A DNA stretch of 64,000 nucleotides from Niebla homalea (taxonomy: Eukaryota; Ascomycota; Lecanoromycetes; Lecanorales; Ramalinaceae). The translations under genes and the position numbers were made by a program. The stretch is taken from the NCBI GenBank assembly GCA_019925105.1, contig JAHGAU010000008.1, forward strand, positions 1,550,001 to 1,614,000, given 5' to 3'. This document shows, piece by piece, positions 22,616 to 49,221 of the stretch. Each line of letters begins with the position of its first letter. The stretch's first letter is position 1. The notes beneath the pieces were generated by a model that saw only the letters and a program-made list of their open reading frames with translations, had not been told where the DNA came from and searched no databases.

Positions 22616-25228
22616 TTAGATCCCATCGTCACGGAAATCAATCAACGGAAACAGATCATCCTCATAAGGCGCTGCGGCCTGCGGCATCCCTCCATCCTCG
22701 TCCACCGGTTCGGGCAACCCATCGTCGATCAGCCGGTCTTGCGCCCGAGCAGGTCCCGGTGCCAACGGCATTGCGCCCCCACCACCACCACCACCATCAT
22801 TCCCCCAGCCCCATCCATCATTGGCCCAAGGATCATGGGGATCAGCTGCTGCGACAAGGCCGGGATCATCAGCACCAACTCCCCAACCGTCCACACCGCC
22901 GCCGCCGCCGCCGCCGCCCTCCCCGTCCCCAAACGCGCCCCCGTGCACCCTCCCCAAATGCGCATACACAGCCCCGGACGCATCAAACCCTTCCCCGCAT
23001 CTCCAACACATGTGGCCCCCACAACCCGCGCACTGGACGTGGTTGCACCCGTCCTCCTTGATGATGACGGCCCCGCACTTCGGGCAGGCTCGCGCCCCGG
23101 TCTTCTGCTTCCATTCGGCGAACTCGGGGTCCTCGACCAGCGACTTTTGGTATTGCGCGCAGGTCAAGCCTTCATGGCTGGCGATGTGGCAGGTCGTGCA
23201 GATGGCCGTCAGACACGCGGGACAGGTGACGACCTTGCCGTCGTCGGTCGGGTGGTAGATGGTCTCGCACCCGGCTGTTGGGCAGTAGCGGTACTTGGTC
23301 GGGTGGGCGCGCAGGTGGGCGGCGAAGGAGCGGGTGAGGAGAGCGTCGAAGACGTCGCGACTTAGGACCGATTGGAGTTCGGTGAGGGAGAGTATGGTGT
23401 CGCATTGGCTTGCGGCGCCGAGGCAGCGGAGAGGGAAGTTGGAGGGTGAGTCGGCGTAGCGAGCTTGGGAGATGAAGCAGGCGTGGTCGTAGATGTGGCC
23501 GCAGGGAGGGGTGTAGATGTCGTTGGGGGCAACGGGGTCGTAGCAGACTGCGCATTCGGTCTCTTTGGTTGTGGCACCGCCTTTGTTGGTGGTGGTGGAA
23601 GACTTTGCGCGGATGGCGTCGCCATTCAATTGTCGGACGATCCATTTGGCCCGGTCAGCATCCTCGGAGGTGCCAAGCAGAGTCATGCGGTTGATGAGAC
23701 TGAGCTGACTTGCCGCTTTGAAACGCACGTTTCGACTCCCAAATCTGGCAACAAGTTCGTTGTACACCAAGTCATTAGTTCCAGTAGGCCAGTCTGCGCT
23801 ATTCAGTTCGATGGTGTGGATGCTGAATGACGAATGGCGGATGTTGGTGACGAATTTGGCCAGAATGCTCTCCACGAGGGTCATCTTCTCGACCTTGCCG
23901 TACAAACTAACAAGACGTTCAGTCTTGTTCGAGTAGATGAAGACATCGTGCTCGATGCCGAGATTTCTCAGGTAGGTTATCCCTTCCCGCTTTGAGAAGA
24001 AGTCGAGCCAGATAATGTCTTGACCAGACTTGGCGGTATGACCTGCCAGTATCTTCTCGACGGCAGCTTTGGCTTTGGCAAGTCGTTGCACGGAATCAGA
24101 AACGATGTTGAGGGATCTGAACTTTTCGACTATCGTTGGATTGGCGCAACATCTGATGTCAAGATGACCTTCGGATTGATGCGCCAGCGCGATCTCGGAT
24201 ATGTTCGCCCTCAATCTCTGCCATAAGATTCTCAGGATAGGGATTCCGACAGTCAGCATGAGTGACACGGATATCCGGGAACCTCCAAGTTGAGGCAGTC
24301 GGTATCCGTCGAGCGTTTTGACAGCAGTCTGAGCCTCCTCGGTGGATGCGAATGTTGCTATACCTTCGGCACGCTTCTTTTTGGACTCGGTAAGTTCCCA
24401 GGCAGTGACCGTTCCCTTAGCACAGAGCTCCTTCGCAATCGTTTGGCCAATTTTATCACAAGTCGAGGAATAGGATGGCTCCCCAAATATCACCGACAAT
24501 GGCTGATGGTCTTTGCACACGTCACGGAGCAATTCCTCCTGCGTTTCGACATGCAAGTTGCCAATCCTCAGGCTTTGCATGCTGCTGTTGTCTCGCACTG
24601 TGGACAAATTGCGAGGATTTCTGCCCTTGATCTCAGACGCAGTAAGGCTCATCAGAGCTGCCCCTGCATCTGCGGCTTTGCTGAACTCGAGGACTGCAGT
24701 CTTTGACGGCTGGTACCACGTGCATTTCACGTTGATCAGCATGTTTGACCCAGCCGAAGTGGTTGCAGGGTCGACACTCAAGACCTGGGCCCCATCACCG
24801 AATGTCACCGAAGCACCAGCCATAGCCCTAGAGATGGTCTCAACAATTGGTGGCTCTTGATCATTATGAACCGACGGCGGCGAGTGTTTGACTAGGAGAT
24901 TGTCAGATATCACGTCTTGATACATGGGCATGACTGAAGACATACCTTCAGATTGTTGGGATCCTAGTCCCTCTTGAGGATAGTGCTGGAAGCGACATCG
25001 GTCGCCAAATCTGCAAGCTCCCTGGGCGTAGAAACGGCAAGGCACATGCGGGATCGCGCTGGGAGTTGGAGCAGTCGATGGGTGCAGCCCAAGACCTGAC
25101 ATTAGTTTGGGCAGGTCTCTCGTGTTAGAGACCTCTGATCTGGGGATAAGCGGTTGCACGTGCTCATGAGGACAGTTGCTGCCTCGCTGGCACCCGCCAG
25201 GACTTGTGAAGTCCCTGCAAACAACCAT
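22616..25228 (-). CDS. CCCH zinc-finger RBR E3 ubiquitin ligase
   Basis: 870 residues from the ATG at 25228; 852 if the 54-nt open intron 24892-24945 is removed. The frame continues upstream, but starting here puts the first CCCH finger directly at the N-terminus (C4, C13, C19, H23, spacing C-x8-C-x5-C-x3-H). A second CCCH finger (C-x7-C-x5-C-x3-H) lies about 85 residues later. The middle contains RRM-like and KH-like regions. The C-terminal third (about 556-775) is a RING1-IBR-RING2 module: CAVCYDP, an IBR with CPACLTAICTTC, then RING2 with CPKCGAVI and GCNHVQC. The first Cys of the last motif corresponds to the catalytic thioester Cys of RBR ligases. A Gly-rich tail and an acidic end follow. 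This suggests a ubiquitin ligase that binds RNA; the target is unknown. Confidence 0.87.
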   Translation of the reverse strand: MVVCRDFTSPGGCQRGSNCPHEHVQPLIPRSEVSNTRDLPKLMSGLGLHPSTAPTPSAIPHVPCRFYAQGACRFGDRCRFQHYPQEGLGSQQSEGMSSVMPMYQDVISDNLLVKHSPPSVHNDQEPPIVETISRAMAGASVTFGDGAQVLSVDPATTSAGSNMLINVKCTWYQPSKTAVLEFSKAADAGAALMSLTASEIKGRNPRNLSTVRDNSSMQSLRIGNLHVETQEELLRDVCKDHQPLSVIFGEPSYSSTCDKIGQTIAKELCAKGTVTAWELTESKKKRAEGIATFASTEEAQTAVKTLDGYRLPQLGGSRISVSLMLTVGIPILRILWQRLRANISEIALAHQSEGHLDIRCCANPTIVEKFRSLNIVSDSVQRLAKAKAAVEKILAGHTAKSGQDIIWLDFFSKREGITYLRNLGIEHDVFIYSNKTERLVSLYGKVEKMTLVESILAKFVTNIRHSSFSIHTIELNSADWPTGTNDLVYNELVARFGSRNVRFKAASQLSLINRMTLLGTSEDADRAKWIVRQLNGDAIRAKSSTTTNKGGATTKETECAVCYDPVAPNDIYTPPCGHIYDHACFISQARYADSPSNFPLRCLGAASQCDTILSLTELQSVLSRDVFDALLTRSFAAHLRAHPTKYRYCPTAGCETIYHPTDDGKVVTCPACLTAICTTCHIASHEGLTCAQYQKSLVEDPEFAEWKQKTGARACPKCGAVIIKEDGCNHVQCAGCGGHMCWRCGEGFDASGAVYAHLGRVHGGAFGDGEGGGGGGGGVDGWGVGADDPGLVAAADPHDPWANDGWGWGNDGGGGGGGAMPLAPGPARAQDRLIDDGLPEPVDEDGGMPQAAAPYEDDLFPLIDFRDDGI
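24892..24945 (-). other. Probable retained-frame intron in the RBR gene
   Basis: 54 nt, a multiple of three and without a stop, bounded by a strong donor (GTATGT), a CTGAC branch-like site and acceptor CCTAG. Its translation is Met-rich and fits poorly between the disordered flanks. The frame stays open either way, so only transcript data can decide. Confidence 0.6.
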
Positions 25229-25705
25229 GCCTGCAGAGAGCGATGGAGAGATTTGAGAAGGACAAAGAAGATGGAAGTTTAAAAACAGACAGAAATGTCC
25301 ACATCGACTGTATCGAGGACAAGTGTCGTGGCAATATGTCATACGCCTTGACACAGAGACGGTCGACACGGGTTATATATTTAGGTACCTGTTGTGTTGT
25401 GAATGCATAGGGTATCATGTGGTCTGCCAAGGAGCATGTGTTCAGCCGTGTCAGGTTAAAAAGCCAGAACCACAAGCAAACGTACTGAGAAGCTTGGTAG
25501 CTGATTCCTTCCTCCATGATTCTATCTCGTCCGGGTATTTATTGCATTCATCATGCGTCATTGCATAACGTAGTGATACCGCCATCACGCACAAATGTGA
25601 AAAACGCGAAAAGCTCGATGTTCAACCAGCCTCAGCTGCGTATAGGATGTTGTGAATCTCAAATCCAGTGCTATGCATGTTATTCATGAAATCTGCACGA
25701 AAGAA
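25229..25705. other. Region between RBR 5' end and RING-CH 5'... 3' flank
   Basis: Contains the promoter of the minus-strand RBR gene on its low-coordinate side running upward from 25229, and the 3' flank of the gene further up (25706). No separate gene was recognised. Confidence 0.35.
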
Positions 25706-35759: not shown

Positions 35760-37410
35760 CATCGACTAGCCCCTCTTCGTCTCCCCAACAGCCCTTCGAT
35801 TTCTTCGGCGACAGTAGGCCAATCCCATCCATTGTGCGCTCTTTTTGGTGGCTTGGTGGCTTACCCCCCCGCTCGAAGCCAGTTCCATTTTCGTACACTC
35901 TGGATACCTGGTCTCCCATGGCAACACGGCCTTTCGATGCTGGACTGCTTCGATTTGCCCACTTCAAGGCCCTCTCCTTGGTCTCTGGCATCGAATTGGG
36001 GGCGCTCGGGCCTCGCCTTTGTGTGGTATTCGCCACTCTGTGAGGTTTTTGGGCACGCCCCCTGGAATCCTCACCTCTTATGTCCGGTCTCTCTCGGCTA
36101 TACACCATCATCTCCATCTGGGCTTGCTGGTGGCTTGCCGCAGTGCATGGCTTCTTCTGTTTACAGGGTTTCGACGCCGGACAATCGAGTTACTCCCCTT
36201 CCTCTATCTGGGCTTGGTGGTGGCTTGCGGCAGTGCATGGGCTTCTTCTGTTTACGTGGATTCGACGCCGAACAATCGAGTTGCCCCCCCTTGAGGCCCT
36301 CAACTGGTTTTCAAAGCTCACGCCACGGTAGATGGTCTCCCTGGCAACACGGTCTTTCGATACTGGAGCATCGTATTCACCTCTTCGGGAGACCCTTCAG
36401 TGTGTCTGGCGTCGGATTGGGGCGCTAGGGTCCAGACCGCTCCGTCAATCGCTCTTTGGATCTCCTACAGGCTCCGGGCGTTGATGCCACGCGCCATGAT
36501 TCCTGACGTCACACGAGATTCGATGCTGGACTGTCGAGTTGCCCATAATGAGATGCATCTCCAGGCTCCTGGCGTTGGACTGGGGATTACTTACCTCACG
36601 CTGTCGATTTTGCCACTTGCGAGGTTCCCTACCGGCGCCGGGGAGTGACTGGTGGGCGCCTGGGCGCCTGGTGCCACACTTCACGGTTTCCAAAGCAACA
36701 CGAGGTTCAATGCTGGACTTTCGGATTGCCCATTCTTGATCCTATTCCCAATGCCCGGCATTGAGCCGGGGAGCATGGACCTCGTGCTCGCTGCTTTGCC
36801 ACTTGGAAGCTCCCCTACAGACTCCGGGGGCTTGTGGTACAATCCATGGTTTCTCTCCGGCAACCTAATGCTCGATGCTAGGGTGTCAAGTTGACCATTT
36901 TTGATCCCGTCCCTGATGTATGGCGTCGGAGTGGGAAGCATGCTGTCCATTTGCCACCCTCGAGGTTTCTTGCAGTCTCTTGGCGTGGGCGCTACACTCC
37001 GTGGACCCTGAAATGTTTCGAGGCTCGATGCTGGACTGTGGAATTGCCCATAATGAGATGCATCTCCAAGCACCTGGCGTTGGACTGGGGATTACGTACA
37101 CGCTGTCATTTTTGCCACTCTCGAGGTTACCTACGGGCCCCGAAGGCTTGTACCACCATCACCCGTCTTCAGAGTAACACACGATCTCGAATGCTACTCC
37201 TCGCTCTCCATATTCCAAGGGTTTCTCAATGACGTGCTCTTTGTTTACGGGGGTTTGAGGCTGGATCTTTCAGGTTTGTCCGTTCTGGGCCCTTACATTA
37301 AGTTTTGATGGTTGTGCCACGATCGCTGGTCTCCATGGCAACTCCCAATCCGACGCTGGAGTCTGGAGTTGGCCCCTATTGGGTTTATTGGTGGTCTTGC
37401 TCGTTGAACA
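35760..37410. repeat. Degenerate satellite array, about 160-bp period
   Basis: The anchor CGATGCTGGACT and its variants recur at 35936, 36359, 36522, 36709, 36874, 37027, 37189 and 37352. The spacing is 153-187 bp once the first gap is set aside. Each unit also carries relatives of GGCAACACG before the anchor and TTGCCC after it. The closest pair (36522 and 37027) agree over more than 100 bp. In the first gap a separate element of about 88 bp is duplicated (36121-36193 and 36209-36282). Long open frames here (for example 35703-36428) reflect the sequence's low stop content, not a gene. No transposon ORF, terminal repeat or target duplication is visible. Confidence 0.8.
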
Positions 37411-38470
37411 AGGGAGCACGTGCCCCACACTAATAAGTGCCATAGGTAGTGTTCAGTCGCAAAGTTGAGCGTGAGCTGTGAAACCTTTCTGGAGAGTGAA
37501 CAATGTCTCCAACCCTGCTCCCCTTGATGTTTTTGCGAGCTTTAGGTAGCCTCGTCTCCAAATATTGGATGTTGGTCCTTTTCGCAGTTGTGCACTCCAT
37601 CCTCTGCGCATTTTTTGACAGAGAGTCCACACTCCAGGAATCATCCACACAACCAGCGTATGGGGAGGCGATCTACCGCGTCAGTCCCATTACTCGCCAT
37701 GCTTAGGAGCTCAAGGATAACCTGAAAGGTGCTGTACTTCTACTCCTGAGCGCATTGACTCGCATCCCGGATGGAGTTTGCGAGCCTTCAGAGATTTGAT
37801 ATTGTTGTCAGATGCAAGCCTTTATAGTCGATATCTGGTCCCCTAGATCTTGGAGATTTATCGCATTGGTGTACAAAATCCAGCCTCCCACACTGACAGG
37901 GAGTGTACTTTTGTTGAGCTCCCTAGAGAACGCAGGTCATCTGATGAACCGTGACAGTATCTTGAAAGACTTGATCAGTCCAAGCGTTGCCATGTTCATA
38001 TCATCCTGCAGACTCGACTGGTTTATGGTGTCATCGTACTTAAGCCATTGTTGAGTCTGTGTCGACAATGGCAAGCTCGTTAAAACCCCAAACTATTGCG
38101 GCGAGGGCGCGGTAAAATCAGGTTTCTCCCAATTCAAGCAACGTTTCCACTCTTTTAATTCATCCAAAAAGTGCTTGTTTAAAGGAGATCTTGGTTATAA
38201 AGTCAGTATCCTTACCTCAATTTATACGATTAGTACTGAAATCCTTGTCACAGACTATGCATTTGGTACGGGAATAAGCGTCCAGGATTGGCAATTTTTG
38301 TTGTTGTTGTTAACGAGCGTGGTACTTCCGCTACGGGGTTCCTGCATTAGATGCTCAGGCGTCTCTCGGCAGGAGAATGATAGAACGAATGAAGACTATG
38401 GAAAATTCCTTAGTGTTCCCTAGTCGGGAAAGAAGAATTCTGGCTCATAGCTACGTCAGACGTGTCTTGA
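37411..38470. other. Gene-free region after the satellite array
   Basis: AT-richer region between the array and the first paralog gene. Only short frames with no family resemblance were seen. Confidence 0.4.
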
Positions 38471-39001
38471 CTATAAGCAATGGGTGAGCTTACCTGTCAT
38501 GACACGCCTGTGTTCGTTCCTAGGCCGCAAGGTCCAAGTGTGAGATGGTAGTGCAGCCCATCCAGAACTCCCTGCGGACTTGTTCCTGCGTTGGGAGGAC
38601 TTCTGAGTCTTTGTCCGTCCCGTGGTTTTGGATTTCTGAATTCTTGCATTTGAGTTTGATTGCGCAGCATCGGCCTTTCGTATCGATTTACGTCCTTTGG
38701 AGGATTTTGGCCTCATCAAGCTCTTGGTCAGTCGACCTGGGTATTTGTATTCGCGATAAAAGACTTCATGATCCGACTCCGGACCATACGCAAATCCGCT
38801 CATGATATTGTTTGCTCGCAGCCATCGATCGAGTTCAAGTGTGGTGAGATGCCGTTCGCGTCCCCGTGACGCCGGCCACTTGCTTGCAGGATGATCCATG
38901 AGGTATTGAAAGCATTGAGAGCCAGCCTCAACACTGCCAACGTAGTGCTTCTCCATCTCTGCTTTTGCTGCAGGCGGGTCATCCCAGTCAACGGCGAACA
39001 T
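38471..39001 (-). CDS. Small two-part protein, local family copy A
   Basis: 176 residues from an ATG at 39001. The N-terminal 95 residues form a compact domain: a WDDPP start, YVGSVEAGSQCFQYLMD, HLTTLELDRWLRANN, then YGPESDHEVFYREY and a YPGRLTKSL end. The remainder is a strongly basic Lys/Arg/Ser tail that looks nuclear or nucleic-acid-binding. The same layout recurs in the gene at 39779-40363 and, decayed, at 42740-42976. A strong donor (GTAAGC) overlaps the last codons near 38487, so the true C-terminus may be spliced. I recognise no published domain. No function is assigned. Confidence 0.6.
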   Translation of the reverse strand: MFAVDWDDPPAAKAEMEKHYVGSVEAGSQCFQYLMDHPASKWPASRGRERHLTTLELDRWLRANNIMSGFAYGPESDHEVFYREYKYPGRLTKSLMRPKSSKGRKSIRKADAAQSNSNARIQKSKTTGRTKTQKSSQRRNKSAGSSGWAALPSHTWTLRPRNEHRRVMTGKLTHCL

Positions 39002-39778
39002 GATTCAAGTGTTGGGGTGGTACAGCTGTGTGTATGATGAAGTGAAGGATGCGGCTTCAGATGGTTGATGCTAAGATGTGCGGGTAGATCGATGAGCGAG
39101 AATGAACGAAGTGGCGAAGTTGCTTAAAGCTGGATCTGTTACTGTCATGGGACAGAAATTGTGGTTGAAGAGGGCAGGAGAGGGAGATTGGGTCGGCGAA
39201 TCTGTAACAACTCTTCAAGGGGCACTTAACGAAACAGTTGCCACCACCAAGATTCAGGAGTGCTCACCTCACCATCACTGTGTCTACCTCCGTAGTATCA
39301 GCAGGATCGACCTTGAAAGATTCAAAAGATGTTCGGCAAGTCTTTTCAACATCTCTTAGATCCGACTGTCAATGCCTCTCAAGATGAACTTTGTTTTGAG
39401 TCTACAAGTGCTGCCGACGACCAGAACGTGTGTGTCGTGGCCATGGGCCGCGTAATAATAATGGTAACATGCACATCTCGCTACTGAATCTATGACAACC
39501 CCTTTCTCCCGTCCTTGCACAAGAGCTCCTACGCAATGTTTTGAACCCGTTCGCACTCCATTGAATGAGTAAGATTGCCTTGTCGTAACACCAGTCATTG
39601 GGTTAATCTTGATTATCATGCTTCGAAAAACCTGAAAACCAATGTCCCTTGTCTTCCTCCGACGCTCAGTGACGTAGGTTTCTTCCTACTCCAGGGCCCA
39701 CGTATTGGTTTTACAGAATGCGAGAAAGGGGTCTCGAGCTTCGAGACCTGCGTTTTCGCTCGTCAGGATGGAAAATCT
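39002..39778. other. Intergenic between family copies A and B
   Basis: Holds the promoter of copy A and the 3' flank of copy B. An 85-codon plus-strand frame at 39102-39359 lacks supporting features. Confidence 0.4.
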
Positions 39779-40363
39779 CTAGAAGGCGCGGGTCAGACCT
39801 GATTGCGCTTCGGAGACTTGGAGGACTCTACCCGTTCTCGCACGCTTACGTTCTCTCTTAGGCTGTAGTGATTGAACGCGAGATGTGGTTGCGAGCGTGG
39901 CGTCTGATTCTGACTTCTTCCCGGCTTTCTTCGCCTGCCTTCTGGGCCTTATGATATCTTGCTGCTTGCTTGACCTTGATTTTGTTGTACCTGGATTCGA
40001 CCCTGGTTTTGCGGTAGTTTTGCGTTTCGCTGCAGAGCTCACTGCTTCCGGTTCTGACTTTGTGGGCTTGGCGGACTCTTGGGTATTTGCCAGCCACGCG
40101 GCCAACTGATCAGGATGTCTATACAATTTGTAATATATGATGCGCTCAGACTCAGCAGGATAGTGAGCCCCGCCAGTAAACCCGTTCGCTTCAAGATAGA
40201 GGACGAGCTCATATGTTGAAAGGTGCTCTGCCAGCCGGTAAGCCTCTCTCCCCATGTCCATACAAAATTGAAACATCGGAGAGCCGGCTTCTGGGCTGCC
40301 GGTGTATCGCTCTTCAAGCCATTCTCTGGATTCATTCAAATCATTCCAGTCAGGTTCCGACAT
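39779..40363 (-). CDS. Small two-part protein, local family copy B
   Basis: 194 residues from the ATG at 40363; the open frame goes five codons further, but only to a TTG. It matches copy A in the same order: WNDL start, LEERYTGSPEAGSPMFQFCMD spacing identical, HLSTYELVLYLEANG, YPAESERIIYYKLY and HPDQLAAWL. The tail is again basic (KRKTTAKPG, RPRRQAKKAGKK, KRERKRARTGR) but is hardly alignable with copy A. Conserved positions are Y-x-G-S-x-E-A-G-S, F-Q, M-D, H-L-x-T-x-E-L, A-N and E-S. The conserved domain against free tail suggests selection on the fold and on charge. The function is unknown. Confidence 0.62.
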   Translation of the reverse strand: MSEPDWNDLNESREWLEERYTGSPEAGSPMFQFCMDMGREAYRLAEHLSTYELVLYLEANGFTGGAHYPAESERIIYYKLYRHPDQLAAWLANTQESAKPTKSEPEAVSSAAKRKTTAKPGSNPGTTKSRSSKQQDIIRPRRQAKKAGKKSESDATLATTSRVQSLQPKRERKRARTGRVLQVSEAQSGLTRAF

Positions 40364-41123
40364 GTTCTGAGCTGACAATATCTCGCTAAAGGTGGAGTGT
40401 TAGAGTGCAAGGTCCTTTAGGTGGTTTTCAGGTAAAGAGTATATTGCGTTCAACTAAAGACACTAAAGTATGTTGTACAGAAGGTCAAGGAGTGAAGAGG
40501 GACACTCGTGGTGAATCCGGATTAGGCCCGGTAGGGCGGTAAATTCACTTATCACCCAGCTCAACTGTCACTTATTGGCGGGGTAAGTGATGTGAATAGT
40601 AAAATCCCGTTTGGGGAAGAGAGATGCTCTGAGGCATGACCAATGATCATGTAAGAGATGCTGATACCAGGCGGTTCGTGGAAATCGCTAAGCTTTGCCA
40701 TTCAGCCACACCTGCTTCGATTTCTGGCCTGCTTCCATTAAAAGGAGGGTCTTGCGCTTCTGATGGCTTAATCTTCTCTAGGTAGTCTGGTCACAGTGCA
40801 TGCCAATGCAAGATTCGACATGTCTCAAAGGAAGGATGCTATACGTTAATTGCTTCAAGGGCTGCGTTGACTTCACGATCAAGGTCGCATACACCGCGAT
40901 ATTAAGCCCTTGATTGTCCTAGTCCAAGAGTTGAATCCTTTTTGTCTTGTCTTTACAGCCTTTGGCCACGTCTCAATTTCACACGCTATATCATATACCG
41001 GCACTCCCGAATATCGTGCTCAAGCAGATATTACCGCTCTGGAGAAAGGCTCATGCGGAGTGCAGACGACAGCGGTTGACATCTAGATGAAAGACCTTCC
41101 GCAGACGCTTGTCGTGAAAGCCA
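40364..41123. other. Intergenic, no gene seen
   Basis: Contains the promoter of copy B. An imperfect inverted repeat (TTCACTTATCACCC against GGGGTAAGTGATGTGAA) lies at about 40540-40600. No coding frame has support. Confidence 0.4.
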
Positions 41124-41405
41124 ATGGCTATCAGTGAGACGCAAAGTCCAAGACGAAAGGGCCAGTCGAAGAATTACAAGCTCTCGGCCACATACAGCAG
41201 CAAAGGTGGTGTCCAGAAAACCCGAGTGCAGAAAGGCAAAGCGAAGGACCTCCCCTTGATGGACGCTCAGTATTTTTACGCACCGGCAAAGGCATATGCC
41301 CCTTTCGGCGGCGCAGTGGCCCCGAATGCCAACCAACTCATCAAAGACGAAGACGTCAAGGAAGCCAAGAACTATCCGCGTGCAATGGAGCTCTGCACCA
41401 GTTAG
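41124..41405 (+). CDS. Small basic hypothetical protein, doubtful
   Basis: 93 residues from an ATG. Lys/Ser/Ala-rich, with no domain, signal peptide or membrane segment. It sits between family copies B and C on the opposite strand. It may be a real small protein or a chance frame. Confidence 0.3.
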   Translation: MAISETQSPRRKGQSKNYKLSATYSSKGGVQKTRVQKGKAKDLPLMDAQYFYAPAKAYAPFGGAVAPNANQLIKDEDVKEAKNYPRAMELCTS

Positions 41406-42739
41406 GGAACGCTCACCTTGCAATCGATGTATGGGGATTTAGTAGCATTTACTGGAGCCGCAAATATTTGGTGGGCTATAGAGGAGTTTCTTGGATATTA
41501 ATAGGCTGTATTGAAACATGCGGGATTGCTTGTGAGTTGGATAATGTACCTATAGAGCAGTATCATGAGAGTTATGTGTTACTTCGATAGTCTCAAATGC
41601 CAAGTTCCGTTGGCAGAGCTTACCATGCCGGATCCAGAATGACTGATCTCTCTCGCACACAGTACTACTCACTGCGTCGCCGCGCGACATCCACCTCAAG
41701 CCTCTCGACCCTCACCCACTTGGGCAACTAATATTTTTCATCCCTTCAAAGTTGCCACAATCGTAATACAGACATGTGTCAATGACCAGGCCTCGCGTGA
41801 CTCTCCGACGTGCATATTATGTTCTCGCATCTGCCCCCTGTGCCTACTTCCCATCACCCCCACCATCATCAACCCTCTCAGTCCTTATCACATAAACTGA
41901 ACACCCCCCGGCCCCTTTTGTGCTCCAAACCCCAGTGAAAGCTCCACCGAAATTTGCCACCCCAAGTGCCCTTGTCACACCATACGTCACACATCACCAC
42001 CTCACGTGGGGCCTGGCGGGTCGGGAAGCGGCAAGACCGTAGATCCCGTGCTTTAGGCAGAAAAGAAACTTTTATATGAGGTCCAACGCTGGACGAGCTG
42101 GTTGACCGGATCAGGTATGGTGCCGTGGAAGTGTCATCACCGTGTGGTGGTGGTGTTGATAGTGGCGGGGACCTCGGTTAGCTCTAGGAGATTGGGCTAG
42201 GGCCGGGGCCAAGGCCAAGGCCGGGGGGGGAAGAGGTGATCCCAGGTCGCAACAATCGATTCCAGCTGCTGCTTACCTTCCTGCCTGAGCCATCATCATT
42301 CTATTGTCATGATGCGTCACGGGTGCTCAACAACCTCATCTGTGTTCTGGACACGCTGTGGGTTTTGAGTTCAATGTTTTACTAGGCTGCGTTCTTGTCT
42401 GATCTATGCATAGTACGATGTCTGAAGGAGAAGATCAAGAGAGCTGGCGTCCCATATGCTGTATCCACCATCGTCCAAGCCATCCATCCCTGCTCCTTGT
42501 CCAGAAGACACAAAGCAAAGGATCTTCGGTGGAGCGTTTGAGTCGAAGTGATGCTGCAAATATGATTAAGTCCGCGAATGAGGCGTTTGGAGTTTTCAAT
42601 GCCGAATCCTTGGGTTCCGACGATGCATCAAAGTCCCCCCCCCCTTAGCCTGCCGCCCCACCGCTCACACCACCAGTCTTCTCACACTCGTGAGCGGCTG
42701 GGGGTGTGGGCCCCAACACTGCCCATGGCATGTCGCTAT
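41406..42739. other. Gene-free region, partly C-rich and G-rich
   Basis: Contains a C/A-rich stretch (about 41820-41960) and a G-rich tract (about 42180-42240) with a run of nine G. An 80-codon frame at 42406-42648 has no support. Confidence 0.4.
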
Positions 42740-42976
42740 TTGTGACTGGAATAGGATATAAGATCAGACGACCCGAGCATCCGAGACGTTATTAGCTCGA
42801 TCCCAGCGAGCAAGCGAGCTCATACTATGTAAGGTGCTGCTCAACCCTGTGTGTGTGTCTGCCCCCTTTGTTATGCAGTATTGAAGGGGTGGAGAGTCGG
42901 CTGCAGAGCTACCAGTGTATCGCTGTTCCAGCCACCATTTAGCTATAACTGGATCGCTCGAATTGGGACCGGGCAT
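42740..42976 (-). pseudogene. Decayed third copy of the local family (copy C)
   Basis: The ATG-started frame at 42976 reads MPGPNSSDP, then WWLEQRYTGSSAADSP, matching WLEERYTGSPEAGSP of copy B. After about 45 residues the homology jumps frame. In the next frame a relative of HLSTYEL appears as QHLT, an in-frame TAG, then YEL, followed by further stops. Further on, the first frame again gives RWDRANN, like RWLRANN of copy A. Thus at least two length changes and a stop interrupt the conserved domain, and no basic tail follows. This is a pseudogene unless unusual splicing removes the break. Confidence 0.7.
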
Positions 42977-43578
42977 CTTTGGGATTGAAAGTTGCTGCGG
43001 TGGAAGGTCTTTCAAAAGGGAGGATGCATTAACAAATGACAATGTGTGGGGTTCTGAGGGTACGAGACGAGAAACAGAATTTTGGCGGGTGTATAGAGAT
43101 GGACAGAAAGGGTAGATCAAGTTCCAATGCTCCCAAAGAGATCGACTGCAGTAAAGAGGGAGATCACAAACCATCTGGTCTTGCGAGGAGTCTTATATGT
43201 CTTTCATAATCCCTTGAATAGCGCTGAACATTCCCAGCCGCCGAGCAGAGTCTCTATTCTTGGAAGTCCCATCGCCATCACCATTCCAAATCATAGTCGT
43301 CTACCAGGAACCATCCCAGACTCCCATATGGGAATTTCCCTGTCCTCTGGTCAGCATCTTTGGCGCCAAATCATTGATAGAGTTTTGCGAGAGCTCTAGA
43401 GTCGATGCTTGCAACGGATGCGACAGCTTTCAGGATCTAATTGTCGCAGTGTGGCTTGAAACATGGCAGTCGGGTTGATATCAGTATCGTACTTGAATTT
43501 TCGGCCCTTAAAGGCAGCCTTGCTTCCTCCTGCGAGCAGAGGCACAGTGAGGTTCCAAACATGGAGCTACGCATTCCT
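42977..43578. other. Intergenic, no gene seen
   Basis: Between copy C and the 3' end of OMS1. No supported frame. Confidence 0.4.
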
Positions 43579-44571
43579 TCACACGGCACGACGCTGTTGA
43601 GCGCCTCCCACCTGCGCCTTAGGCTCTTTCCACCCACTGGGCCTCGCCTCAACCACCCACACAGTCCCCAGATTCCACCAATGCGGCCTCTCCATCTTCT
43701 GCACCACCAACCCGCTCTGCTTCACAATCTCTCCAATATCCCTATTATGATAGCATCCGTATTGCTCCCCATGGCCCCTCGCACTCCTATCCAATATAAA
43801 GTTGATCCAGTCGTAATAACCCCTTCCATGCTCGATCAACAGAAGCCTCCCCGTGCGCGGGTTCATCAACTCGCCCAAATGCCTCAGCGTGTCCACGGGC
43901 CTTGGCGTGGAGCAAACACCCATGGTCTGTATGATGGTATCATACCCTTCCTTTGGCGCAACTCTAAGCTTCAAGGCTGCTTCCTGCTGAAAGGCGACCT
44001 TCGTGTCTGTAGGAAGCTTAGGATGCAACTCCTTCCATTTCTGCCTTGCGATCTCGAGCATAGGCCCGGACTGATCGAGAAATGTGATGGTCTTGCATGC
44101 TTTGAGGTTGTAGTACTTCGCATTCCTTCCTGTACCGACGGAGGTCTCAAGGACGTGACCTGAAGCTTGGTTTACTAGGCGCTTGCGGAGGGTATCGATG
44201 CCGCTTAGGGTTTCAGTGGTGTCTACCTCGTTGTCGAAGGTATTTGCAAGTTCATCATAACGTGGAGAGGTATCTGGATCTGATGGAGAGCCATCTGACC
44301 CATCTGCGTTTGGTGGATGGCTAGGCTCCCCGCTCAATTGGTAGAGCCAGTAACCGTAGATGAAGACATAATAGAAGCCGATGCCAGAGACGAAGTAGAG
44401 TGGAGCTCCACGCGATAGAGATTGTTGGGGGACAGATACGTGCGAATGTGGACGAGGCGGAGGGGCACTAGACATCAGCGTTGGTCAGCTTGGGGCTTCT
44501 GTCTGCTGTCAAGGATTCCATTCAGAGGTCACGTCATACCGGCTGATGGGCAGACGGCCTATGAGGCCCAT
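43579..44571 (-). CDS. OMS1: OMS1-like mitochondrial membrane methyltransferase
   Basis: Two exons, 44571-44540 and 44467-43579, for 306 residues. The 72-nt intron has donor GTATGA and acceptor TCTAG. The short first exon gives MGLIGRLPISR, a basic, acid-free start that fits a mitochondrial presequence. A membrane segment follows at about 31-55 (YFVSGIGFYYVFIYGYW), then a class I SAM-dependent methyltransferase domain with GHVLETSVGTGRN as the SAM-binding motif and TFLDQSGPML after strand 2. Yeast Oms1 is an inner-membrane protein with this fold and a high-copy suppressor of oxa1 mutants; its substrate is not firmly known. The frame without the first exon would start at 44475 and lack the presequence. 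Confidence 0.83.
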
Positions 44572-47944: not shown

Positions 47945-49024
47945 TCAAACGCCAACATCCATGCCCTGTTCTATAAATCCATCACTGGTCAACTGATTCC
48001 AGTTGACCAAGTCCATCCCCATTTCGAAATCCTGCATATCCAACCCCTCCCCGGGCCCACTATACTGCTGCTGCACCGGAGCCTCATCCATTGGCTGCTC
48101 ACCGGGGAATATCTGGTCCCAAACCTCGTCAATCACCCCGGGATCGCCCAGCTCGGGGGAGATGGAGTGCGTGGTGTTGGCCATGGGGACAGGCGCGGTG
48201 GGGAGAGGCACACCAGGGGCGGCATGGCCTTGTTGGCCGCCGACGACGGGAGGGAATACTTGGTATCCCTGCTGGTTGTAATAGGGGTCGTCGAAGGTGG
48301 GTGGGGCGAGAGGAGGTGCGGCGCCGGACAAGTCGAAGGGGTATTGACCAGGGGGGTAGGCCTGGCCAGGCAGGGGGATGTTGTAGCCCATCTGTTGCTG
48401 GGCGGGAGCGGCAGGTGGGTAGCCGTAGTAGCCAGGGTATTGAGCCGGCGCGCTCAGCACCGGCGTAGAGGGCCGAGCCGGAGTGGCAGGGCACGCAGGC
48501 TCCGGTCGGGGAGAGGCCTGCTTGCGCTGGCGCTTTGTGGTGGCGGCGGGCTTCTTAGACACCTTGTTGGTGTCATTGGCGGCGGTGTTCTTGGAGCCAC
48601 GTTTGGCATGTGGCTTCTTATCGTGTGGGTGCGTTTTCGCCAGGTGAGAGGCGATCTGGGCCCATGGCTGCTCGAGATTGAGGCGCCAGGCTGCGTCGTC
48701 CCTGTTGCTGACCATGCCCATGGCCGAGAGTAATGCATGAGGAGTGGTCAGGGCCTCCTCAGGAACGTTGGGGACCTCTCCGGACTGGATGATGTTGACG
48801 AGGGCCTGATGCATCATGCAGATTTGCATGGTGTAGCCGTTGATGGTGCCCTGTCGAATCATAGTGGCGTTCCCATCCCTGAGGGGGTCCCACATGAGGC
48901 ATATCTTGTTCTCTTTGATGCAAGTGGAGCACGGGTCGCCACCGCAGCACTTGACCTTCTTGAAACTGCAATTGTCGCAGACACGGTGGTGCTTGTCCTG
49001 GATCTGAGGGATCGTAACAGGCAT
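47945..49024 (-). CDS. Zn2Cys6-type transcription regulator
   Basis: 359 residues from the ATG at 49024 (MPVTIPQ); the frame continues upstream to 49096, but that start is not ATG and is less likely. A fungal Zn2Cys6 binuclear cluster lies at residues 16-42 (C16, C19, C26, C32, C35, C42; spacing x2, x6, x5, x2, x6). A short helical region follows, then a basic patch (KKPHAKRG, KRQRKQ) that may be a nuclear signal, and a long Pro/Gln/Tyr/Gly-rich region with an acidic end typical of activation domains. The fungal_trans middle homology domain is not present. A near-perfect 57-bp direct repeat lies in its 5' region. Target genes are unknown. Confidence 0.82.
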   Translation of the reverse strand: MPVTIPQIQDKHHRVCDNCSFKKVKCCGGDPCSTCIKENKICLMWDPLRDGNATMIRQGTINGYTMQICMMHQALVNIIQSGEVPNVPEEALTTPHALLSAMGMVSNRDDAAWRLNLEQPWAQIASHLAKTHPHDKKPHAKRGSKNTAANDTNKVSKKPAATTKRQRKQASPRPEPACPATPARPSTPVLSAPAQYPGYYGYPPAAPAQQQMGYNIPLPGQAYPPGQYPFDLSGAAPPLAPPTFDDPYYNQQGYQVFPPVVGGQQGHAAPGVPLPTAPVPMANTTHSISPELGDPGVIDEVWDQIFPGEQPMDEAPVQQQYSGPGEGLDMQDFEMGMDLVNWNQLTSDGFIEQGMDVGV

Positions 49025-49221
49025 TTTGACGTCTCTTAAGATTGACAACGAGAGCCGAAAGGTGACGGAGCGTATGTCAGTGTGAGAGCAATGCAATCAC
49101 TGTGATTGCAAAGCAAGAGCGATAAGGTCACCACAGTTGTAGAGCCGAAGCAATGTGGATAAGTGAGTGTTTGGAAGGATCGAAATCCGGAGATGTAAAT
49201 GCAAAACGGGGACGACGAGGT

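Follow-up and report, generated by a model that had tools for sequence, protein, structure and literature searches.

The window analysed here is a stretch of 64,000 nucleotides from the ascomycete Niebla homalea (C8:1550001-1614000, in a 50.6-Mb assembly of 52 contigs). Three related loci, copies A, B and C, lie in it on the minus strand. Copies A and B each encode a small protein whose N-terminal head is acidic and whose tail is strongly basic. Copy C is related to them but decayed, and the family to which all three belong is the subject of this report. Their features are as follows, where P0001 and P0004 are relatives found in other assemblies.

Three related loci on the minus strand

38471..39001, minus strand: copy A, an uninterrupted ATG-to-stop frame of 176 amino acids; head 1-90, basic tail 91-176; pairs with P0004
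38732..39001, minus strand: head of copy A, 90 residues, including the 14-residue stretch DHPASKWPASRGRE
39779..40363, minus strand: copy B, an uninterrupted ATG-to-stop frame of 194 amino acids; head 1-86, basic tail 87-194; pairs with P0001
40106..40363, minus strand: head of copy B, 86 residues, helices predicted at low to moderate confidence
39821..39883, minus strand: basic box near the end of copy B, SRVQSLQPKRERKRARTGRVL
42764..42976, minus strand: copy C, a decayed relative; homology at 42776-42976, no tail recognised

A preliminary description, made from the sequence alone, had reported A and B as minus-strand open frames, and both were found at the coordinates it gave, with lengths of 176 and 194 residues. 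When the two proteins were aligned over nearly their full length, 59 of the 192 columns were identical (31%; E 7e-21 in a single comparison). A spliced end for copy A, at a GTAAGC near the stop, was inspected by eye and dropped, as the relatives gave no support for it. Copy C had been described as decayed and placed at 42740-42976. In a tblastn search of the window its homology was confined to 42776-42976, with a best E-value of 2.1e-10, to the relative P0003. The open frame around this piece is longer (42764-43174) and has its stop at 42764; a second homologous piece, at 42816-42863, lies in a different frame and contains an internal stop. It is because of this stop and this second piece that we also regard copy C as decayed.

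The whole genome was then searched with five protein queries (B, P0002, P0004, P0005 and P0006). Copies A and B were matched by all five and copy C by four, P0004 being the exception, and no further convincing copy was seen with these queries in the 50.6 Mb. Two weak extra places, one on C6 (E 0.66, 31% identity over 68 residues) and one on C24 (E 0.015, 28% over 127 residues, with an internal stop), are probably composition matches. At the DNA level the coding part of B was found only at its own place (the single candidate was scored), and the stretch around A had only its downstream repeat in common with other places (all nine candidates scored). The DNA of copy C was searched inside a longer query, for which the best 40 of 90 candidates were scored.

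Relatives, head and tail

The existence of homologues in other assemblies supports the earlier proposal of a protein family. Of the outcomes named beforehand as counting against it, a clear Pfam hit did not turn up, and an absence of homologues is contradicted by these proteins. With B as the query, three related proteins were found among about 5.8 billion, and a five-row profile brought the total to six (P0001-P0006). The best relative had an E-value of 2.5e-62 with the B query and 2.7e-91 with the five-row profile, which already held that protein. An eight-row profile added nothing new and returned four of the six known relatives; the search is therefore not exhaustive, it misses true relatives, and the family may be wider than these six proteins make it appear. 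The search also requires shared five-residue words, and homologues in further genomes may therefore have escaped it. All six are listed without a name, a Pfam domain or a function.

All six have the same head as A and B, and five of them also have the basic tail and an L-x-P box near its end, whereas P0006 is without the tail. P0006 comprises 101 amino acids and comes from a contig of 1,388 bases; its short form is perhaps a cut-off gene call. The closest likenesses are those of P0001 to B (64% identity) and of P0004 to the head of A (57 of 82 residues identical, among them the 14-residue stretch of the A head listed above).

In a tree of the eight proteins, A grouped with P0004 (support 100/98), B with P0001 (100/99) and P0002 with P0003 (100/98). 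When copy C was added, with 35% of its columns filled, it grouped weakly (84/86) with B, P0001, P0002 and P0003, and the support for B with P0001 was lowered to 91/99. By BLAST copy C was nearest to P0003 and P0002, and it may represent the P0002/P0003 type, decayed in this genome. Since the partners of A and B in the tree come from other assemblies, the paralogue types seem to have arisen before the sampled genomes diverged. This argues against a recent local expansion, and the idea of a recently expanding local family, put forward in the preliminary description, is not supported, with only three loci found here. In addition, the contig recorded for P0001 and the one recorded for P0003 both measure 109,568 bases. 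Most likely they are one contig, and the clustering of two family types would then be conserved. Our best reading of these comparisons is a taxonomically restricted fungal family of which A and B survive here, while C would be a third member, decayed in this genome.

The head, as delimited by the marker used, measures 82-90 residues and carries a net charge of -1 to -9 in all eight members. That some 85 N-terminal residues are conserved and have no Pfam match beyond chance (best E 0.068 in the eight members) agrees with what had been proposed. Fourteen residues are invariant in the eight sequences: M1, E17, G22, S23, G27, S28, Q32, H47, L48, E52, L57, N60, Y78 and Y81 (B numbering). The motifs named at first are present in A and B, but several of their positions vary across the family. 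In Y-x-G-S-x-E-A-G-S these include Y, E and A; elsewhere they include M-D, E-S, the F preceding Q and the first residue of A-N. Five of the eight members begin with the acidic sequence MSEPDW. There are two cysteines in A and one in B.

Helices were predicted in B at residues 9-20, 29-37, 39-47 and 50-59, with low to moderate confidence. AlphaFold models built from the eight sequences reached a mean pLDDT (predicted local distance difference test) of 52.8 for B and 62.6 for P0006, and both concur on helices at about 9-20, 29-39 and 50-59 (B numbering). In the P0006 model residues 73-101 were below pLDDT 50, and no strand was predicted. The head is probably mostly helical, as far as these models allow.

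We also looked for known domains and folds. The eight members were scanned against Pfam and PHROGs at E 10 and against NCBIfam at E 1, and the best matches were at chance level (E 0.068, 0.067 and 0.099, respectively); the filters of the Pfam scan drop most weak matches. A known domain was rejected as an explanation, the matches being scattered and at chance level; SAV_2336_NTERM of NCBIfam alone was shared, by two of the eight members (best E 0.15). Histone, HMG, AT-hook, SAP, LEM, HeH and winged-helix families were absent from the Pfam matches of the eight members. A likeness of the head to SAP, LEM or HeH domains was considered, and no tool result supported it. When the PDB was searched by sequence, neither B nor the five-row profile gave a match, and the eight-row profile gave two chains at chance level (E 0.75 and 1.3). 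A fold search of the PDB with the P0006 model returned nothing at E 10, nor did a second look (VIA) at two chains, and in a viral fold library the same model met only noise (best E 2.4). At such model confidence the absence of a fold match does not point to a new fold, and a known fold may have been missed. No RNA family was found in the window at the gathering score. No such family is named in those parts of the literature that were accessible to the search, by which an unnamed family is hardly findable. We call the family undescribed mainly because of its absence from Pfam, PHROGs and NCBIfam.

The tail is 86-108 residues long in seven of the eight members, and in P0006 it is reduced to 12 residues. 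That it is strongly basic, as had been noted for the copies here, holds for all seven long-tailed members: the net charge is +17 to +24, with 23-30% Lys and Arg and 9-18% bulky hydrophobic residues. The description of the tail as free and unalignable did not hold. Alignment of the A and B tails gave a score of 71 against a shuffle mean of 42, and one of 500 shuffles reached 71. Of the 21 pairs that the seven long-tailed members form, 13 were matched by none of 500 shuffles and two (A-B and P0004-B) by one; these are the 15 pairs among A, B and P0001-P0004. For the six pairs that involve P0005, 3, 14, 52, 67, 100 and 368 of 500 shuffles reached the score. The tails are therefore alignable beyond composition in all long-tailed members except P0005. 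Near the C-terminal end all seven have L-x-P followed by a basic cluster. The consensus of this end box is S-R-x-x-x-L-R-P-R-x-E-x-R-R-x-x-T-G-R, but L-x-P is the one part of it common to all seven. The tail also has basic clusters of a type that may act as nuclear localisation signals, KRERKR in B being an example. In the B model the block means of pLDDT in the tail were 39-56. No hydrophobic signal-like or membrane stretch was seen in A or B, the best hydropathy mean over 19 residues being 0.03 in A and 0.49 in B.

Repeats and neighbouring frames

One further feature touches copy B directly:

40398..40572, minus strand: LTR-like (long terminal repeat-like) relic, whose end lies 34 bases from the ATG of B, on the upstream side; the element itself may run in either direction

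The DNA in front of B is similar to units of about 220 bases, a family found in at least 39 other places (the best 40 of 83 candidates were scored). In alignments of the relic, 40398-40501 was covered in all three, and the stretch to 40572 in one (scores 93-108; best of 200 shuffles, 29-33). When three of 29 loci were used as queries, some shared only the unit of about 220 bases, and others up to 1.6 kb of adjoining DNA. The unit ends in TGT...ACA at three of the six loci displayed (L035, L036 and L048). Five loci were examined further: their G+C content was 22-30%, their longest open fragments had 62-97 residues, and no retroelement protein was identified in them. The two lengths of sharing, the TGT...ACA ends, the low G+C content and the short open fragments give the family the look of a mutated LTR retroelement of which solo and longer pieces are left. 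A further copy of the unit in L036 is in inverted orientation, which counts against this interpretation, and an element with inverted ends is a possible alternative. Whichever it is, the relic may serve as promoter or leader of B.

Other repeats lie close by. A dispersed repeat at 38095-38324, directly downstream of copy A, was found in eight other places with 66-80% identity. Another, at 41974-42189 between B and C, was found in at least seven other places with 73-87% identity (the best 40 of 90 candidates were scored). The interval between B and C also holds a plus-strand frame of 93 amino acids (41124-41405), which occurs once in the genome, has no Pfam domain and may or may not be a gene.

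The genes had been said to stand beside a satellite array. What is found there is a small degenerate repeat patch: Tandem Repeats Finder reported only a 91-base unit in 2.0 copies (36112-36289), and a local-repeat search showed degenerate repeats at 35916-37142, in pieces of 29-132 bases, several of them 150-190 bases apart. A 301-base piece of this patch (36100-36400) was seen nowhere else in the genome in a search that skips very common words. The neighbouring frames encode a methyltransferase (43579-44475), a Zn2-Cys6 zinc-cluster protein (47945-49096) and an IBR/CCCH-finger protein (22616-25372), and they point to no function for A and B.

A possible nuclear adaptor and its alternatives

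We judge that there is about an even chance that the proteins are nuclear adaptors associated with nucleic acid. The acidic helical head would bind a partner protein, and the basic tail, presumably flexible, would bring the protein into the nucleus and hold it to nucleic acid or chromatin by charge; the protein would then be an adaptor and not an enzyme. The nucleic-acid role is suggested by the charge of the tail. A role of this kind was also the interpretation offered in the preliminary description, which is partly supported, while its observations as a whole are mostly borne out and in part confirmed. Linker histones and HMG proteins are alike in their small size and their long tail rich in Lys, Arg and Ser. 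Unlike them, the family has an acidic head, and no histone or HMG family matched any of the eight members in Pfam.

Several points weigh against the proposed nuclear adaptor. Nothing among the results ties the protein to the nucleus, to DNA or to RNA, and basic tails occur also in ribosome-associated and lipid-binding proteins. The AlphaFold models of B and P0006 are poor, and the fold they suggest is provisional; low pLDDT of the tail, from so shallow an alignment, is weak evidence of flexibility. P0006 has almost no tail, and the tail of P0005 is not alignable beyond shuffles in five of its six pairs (at least 14 of 500).

It seems unlikely that the proteins have a conserved role outside the nucleus, for example in association with ribosomes, RNA or membrane lipids, through the same basic tail. 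Charge alone cannot separate such a role from a nuclear one, but the basic clusters of the tail that resemble nuclear localisation signals, such as KRERKR in B, speak against it. A further-reaching form of the adaptor proposal is distinctly unlikely: the head would be an undescribed small domain, the family an undescribed class of fungal nuclear adaptors whose types A, B and C were independently kept or lost in different genomes, and B would be transcribed from a captured retrotransposon LTR, the relic 34 bases upstream of its start codon.

The nuclear role could also depend on a head that itself binds DNA, a divergent winged-helix-like domain of three helices followed by a conserved aromatic stretch, with the tail helping. 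The order of the helices in the two models would fit such a domain, as would the conserved stretch behind them, in which two tyrosines are invariant. The head is net acidic, however, the P0006 model is below pLDDT 50 at residues 73-101 and shows no predicted strand, no fold in the PDB matched at E 10 or better, and no winged-helix family was among the filtered Pfam matches of the eight members, so we regard this explanation as improbable.

Among the rivals, the two that follow have results against them. It is very improbable that A and B derive from a mobile element, as its remnant or through domestication, and are not a host gene family. Dispersed repeats surround them (the relic at B and the repeats at 41974-42189 and 38095-38324), together with the local repeats at 36-37 kb; but the five protein queries found three loci in 50.6 Mb, by DNA the coding part of B is single (1 of 1 candidates scored) and the A stretch shares only its downstream repeat (9 of 9 scored; for C, the best 40 of 90), no transposon family is among the Pfam matches of the eight members, and the paralogue pairs are common to other assemblies. 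Least probable of all is an effector-like role, in which the proteins would leave the fungus and act in the nucleus of another organism: A and B are small and basic, with few relatives found and repeats close by, and repeat-rich surroundings are a usual setting of effector genes, but neither has an N-terminal hydrophobic stretch of 19 residues (judged by hydropathy), the N-terminus is acidic, with MSEPDW in five of eight members, and the cysteines are two in A and one in B.

Orphan gene families are numerous in fungi, and for the present this is one of many. It resembles orphan, taxonomically restricted families in its short genes, the small number of relatives found, lack of a known domain and adjoining repeats; it differs from them in its three orthologue-like pairs and shared two-part build, by which the genes would be older than the very youngest of this kind. 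A family without a known domain, with this build and these pairs, is thus added to the fungal genes of unknown role, and its eight sequences and one decayed copy form a small set for functional tests. With the LTR-like relic in front of it, copy B is also a case in which the placing of a mobile element at a young gene's promoter can be tested.

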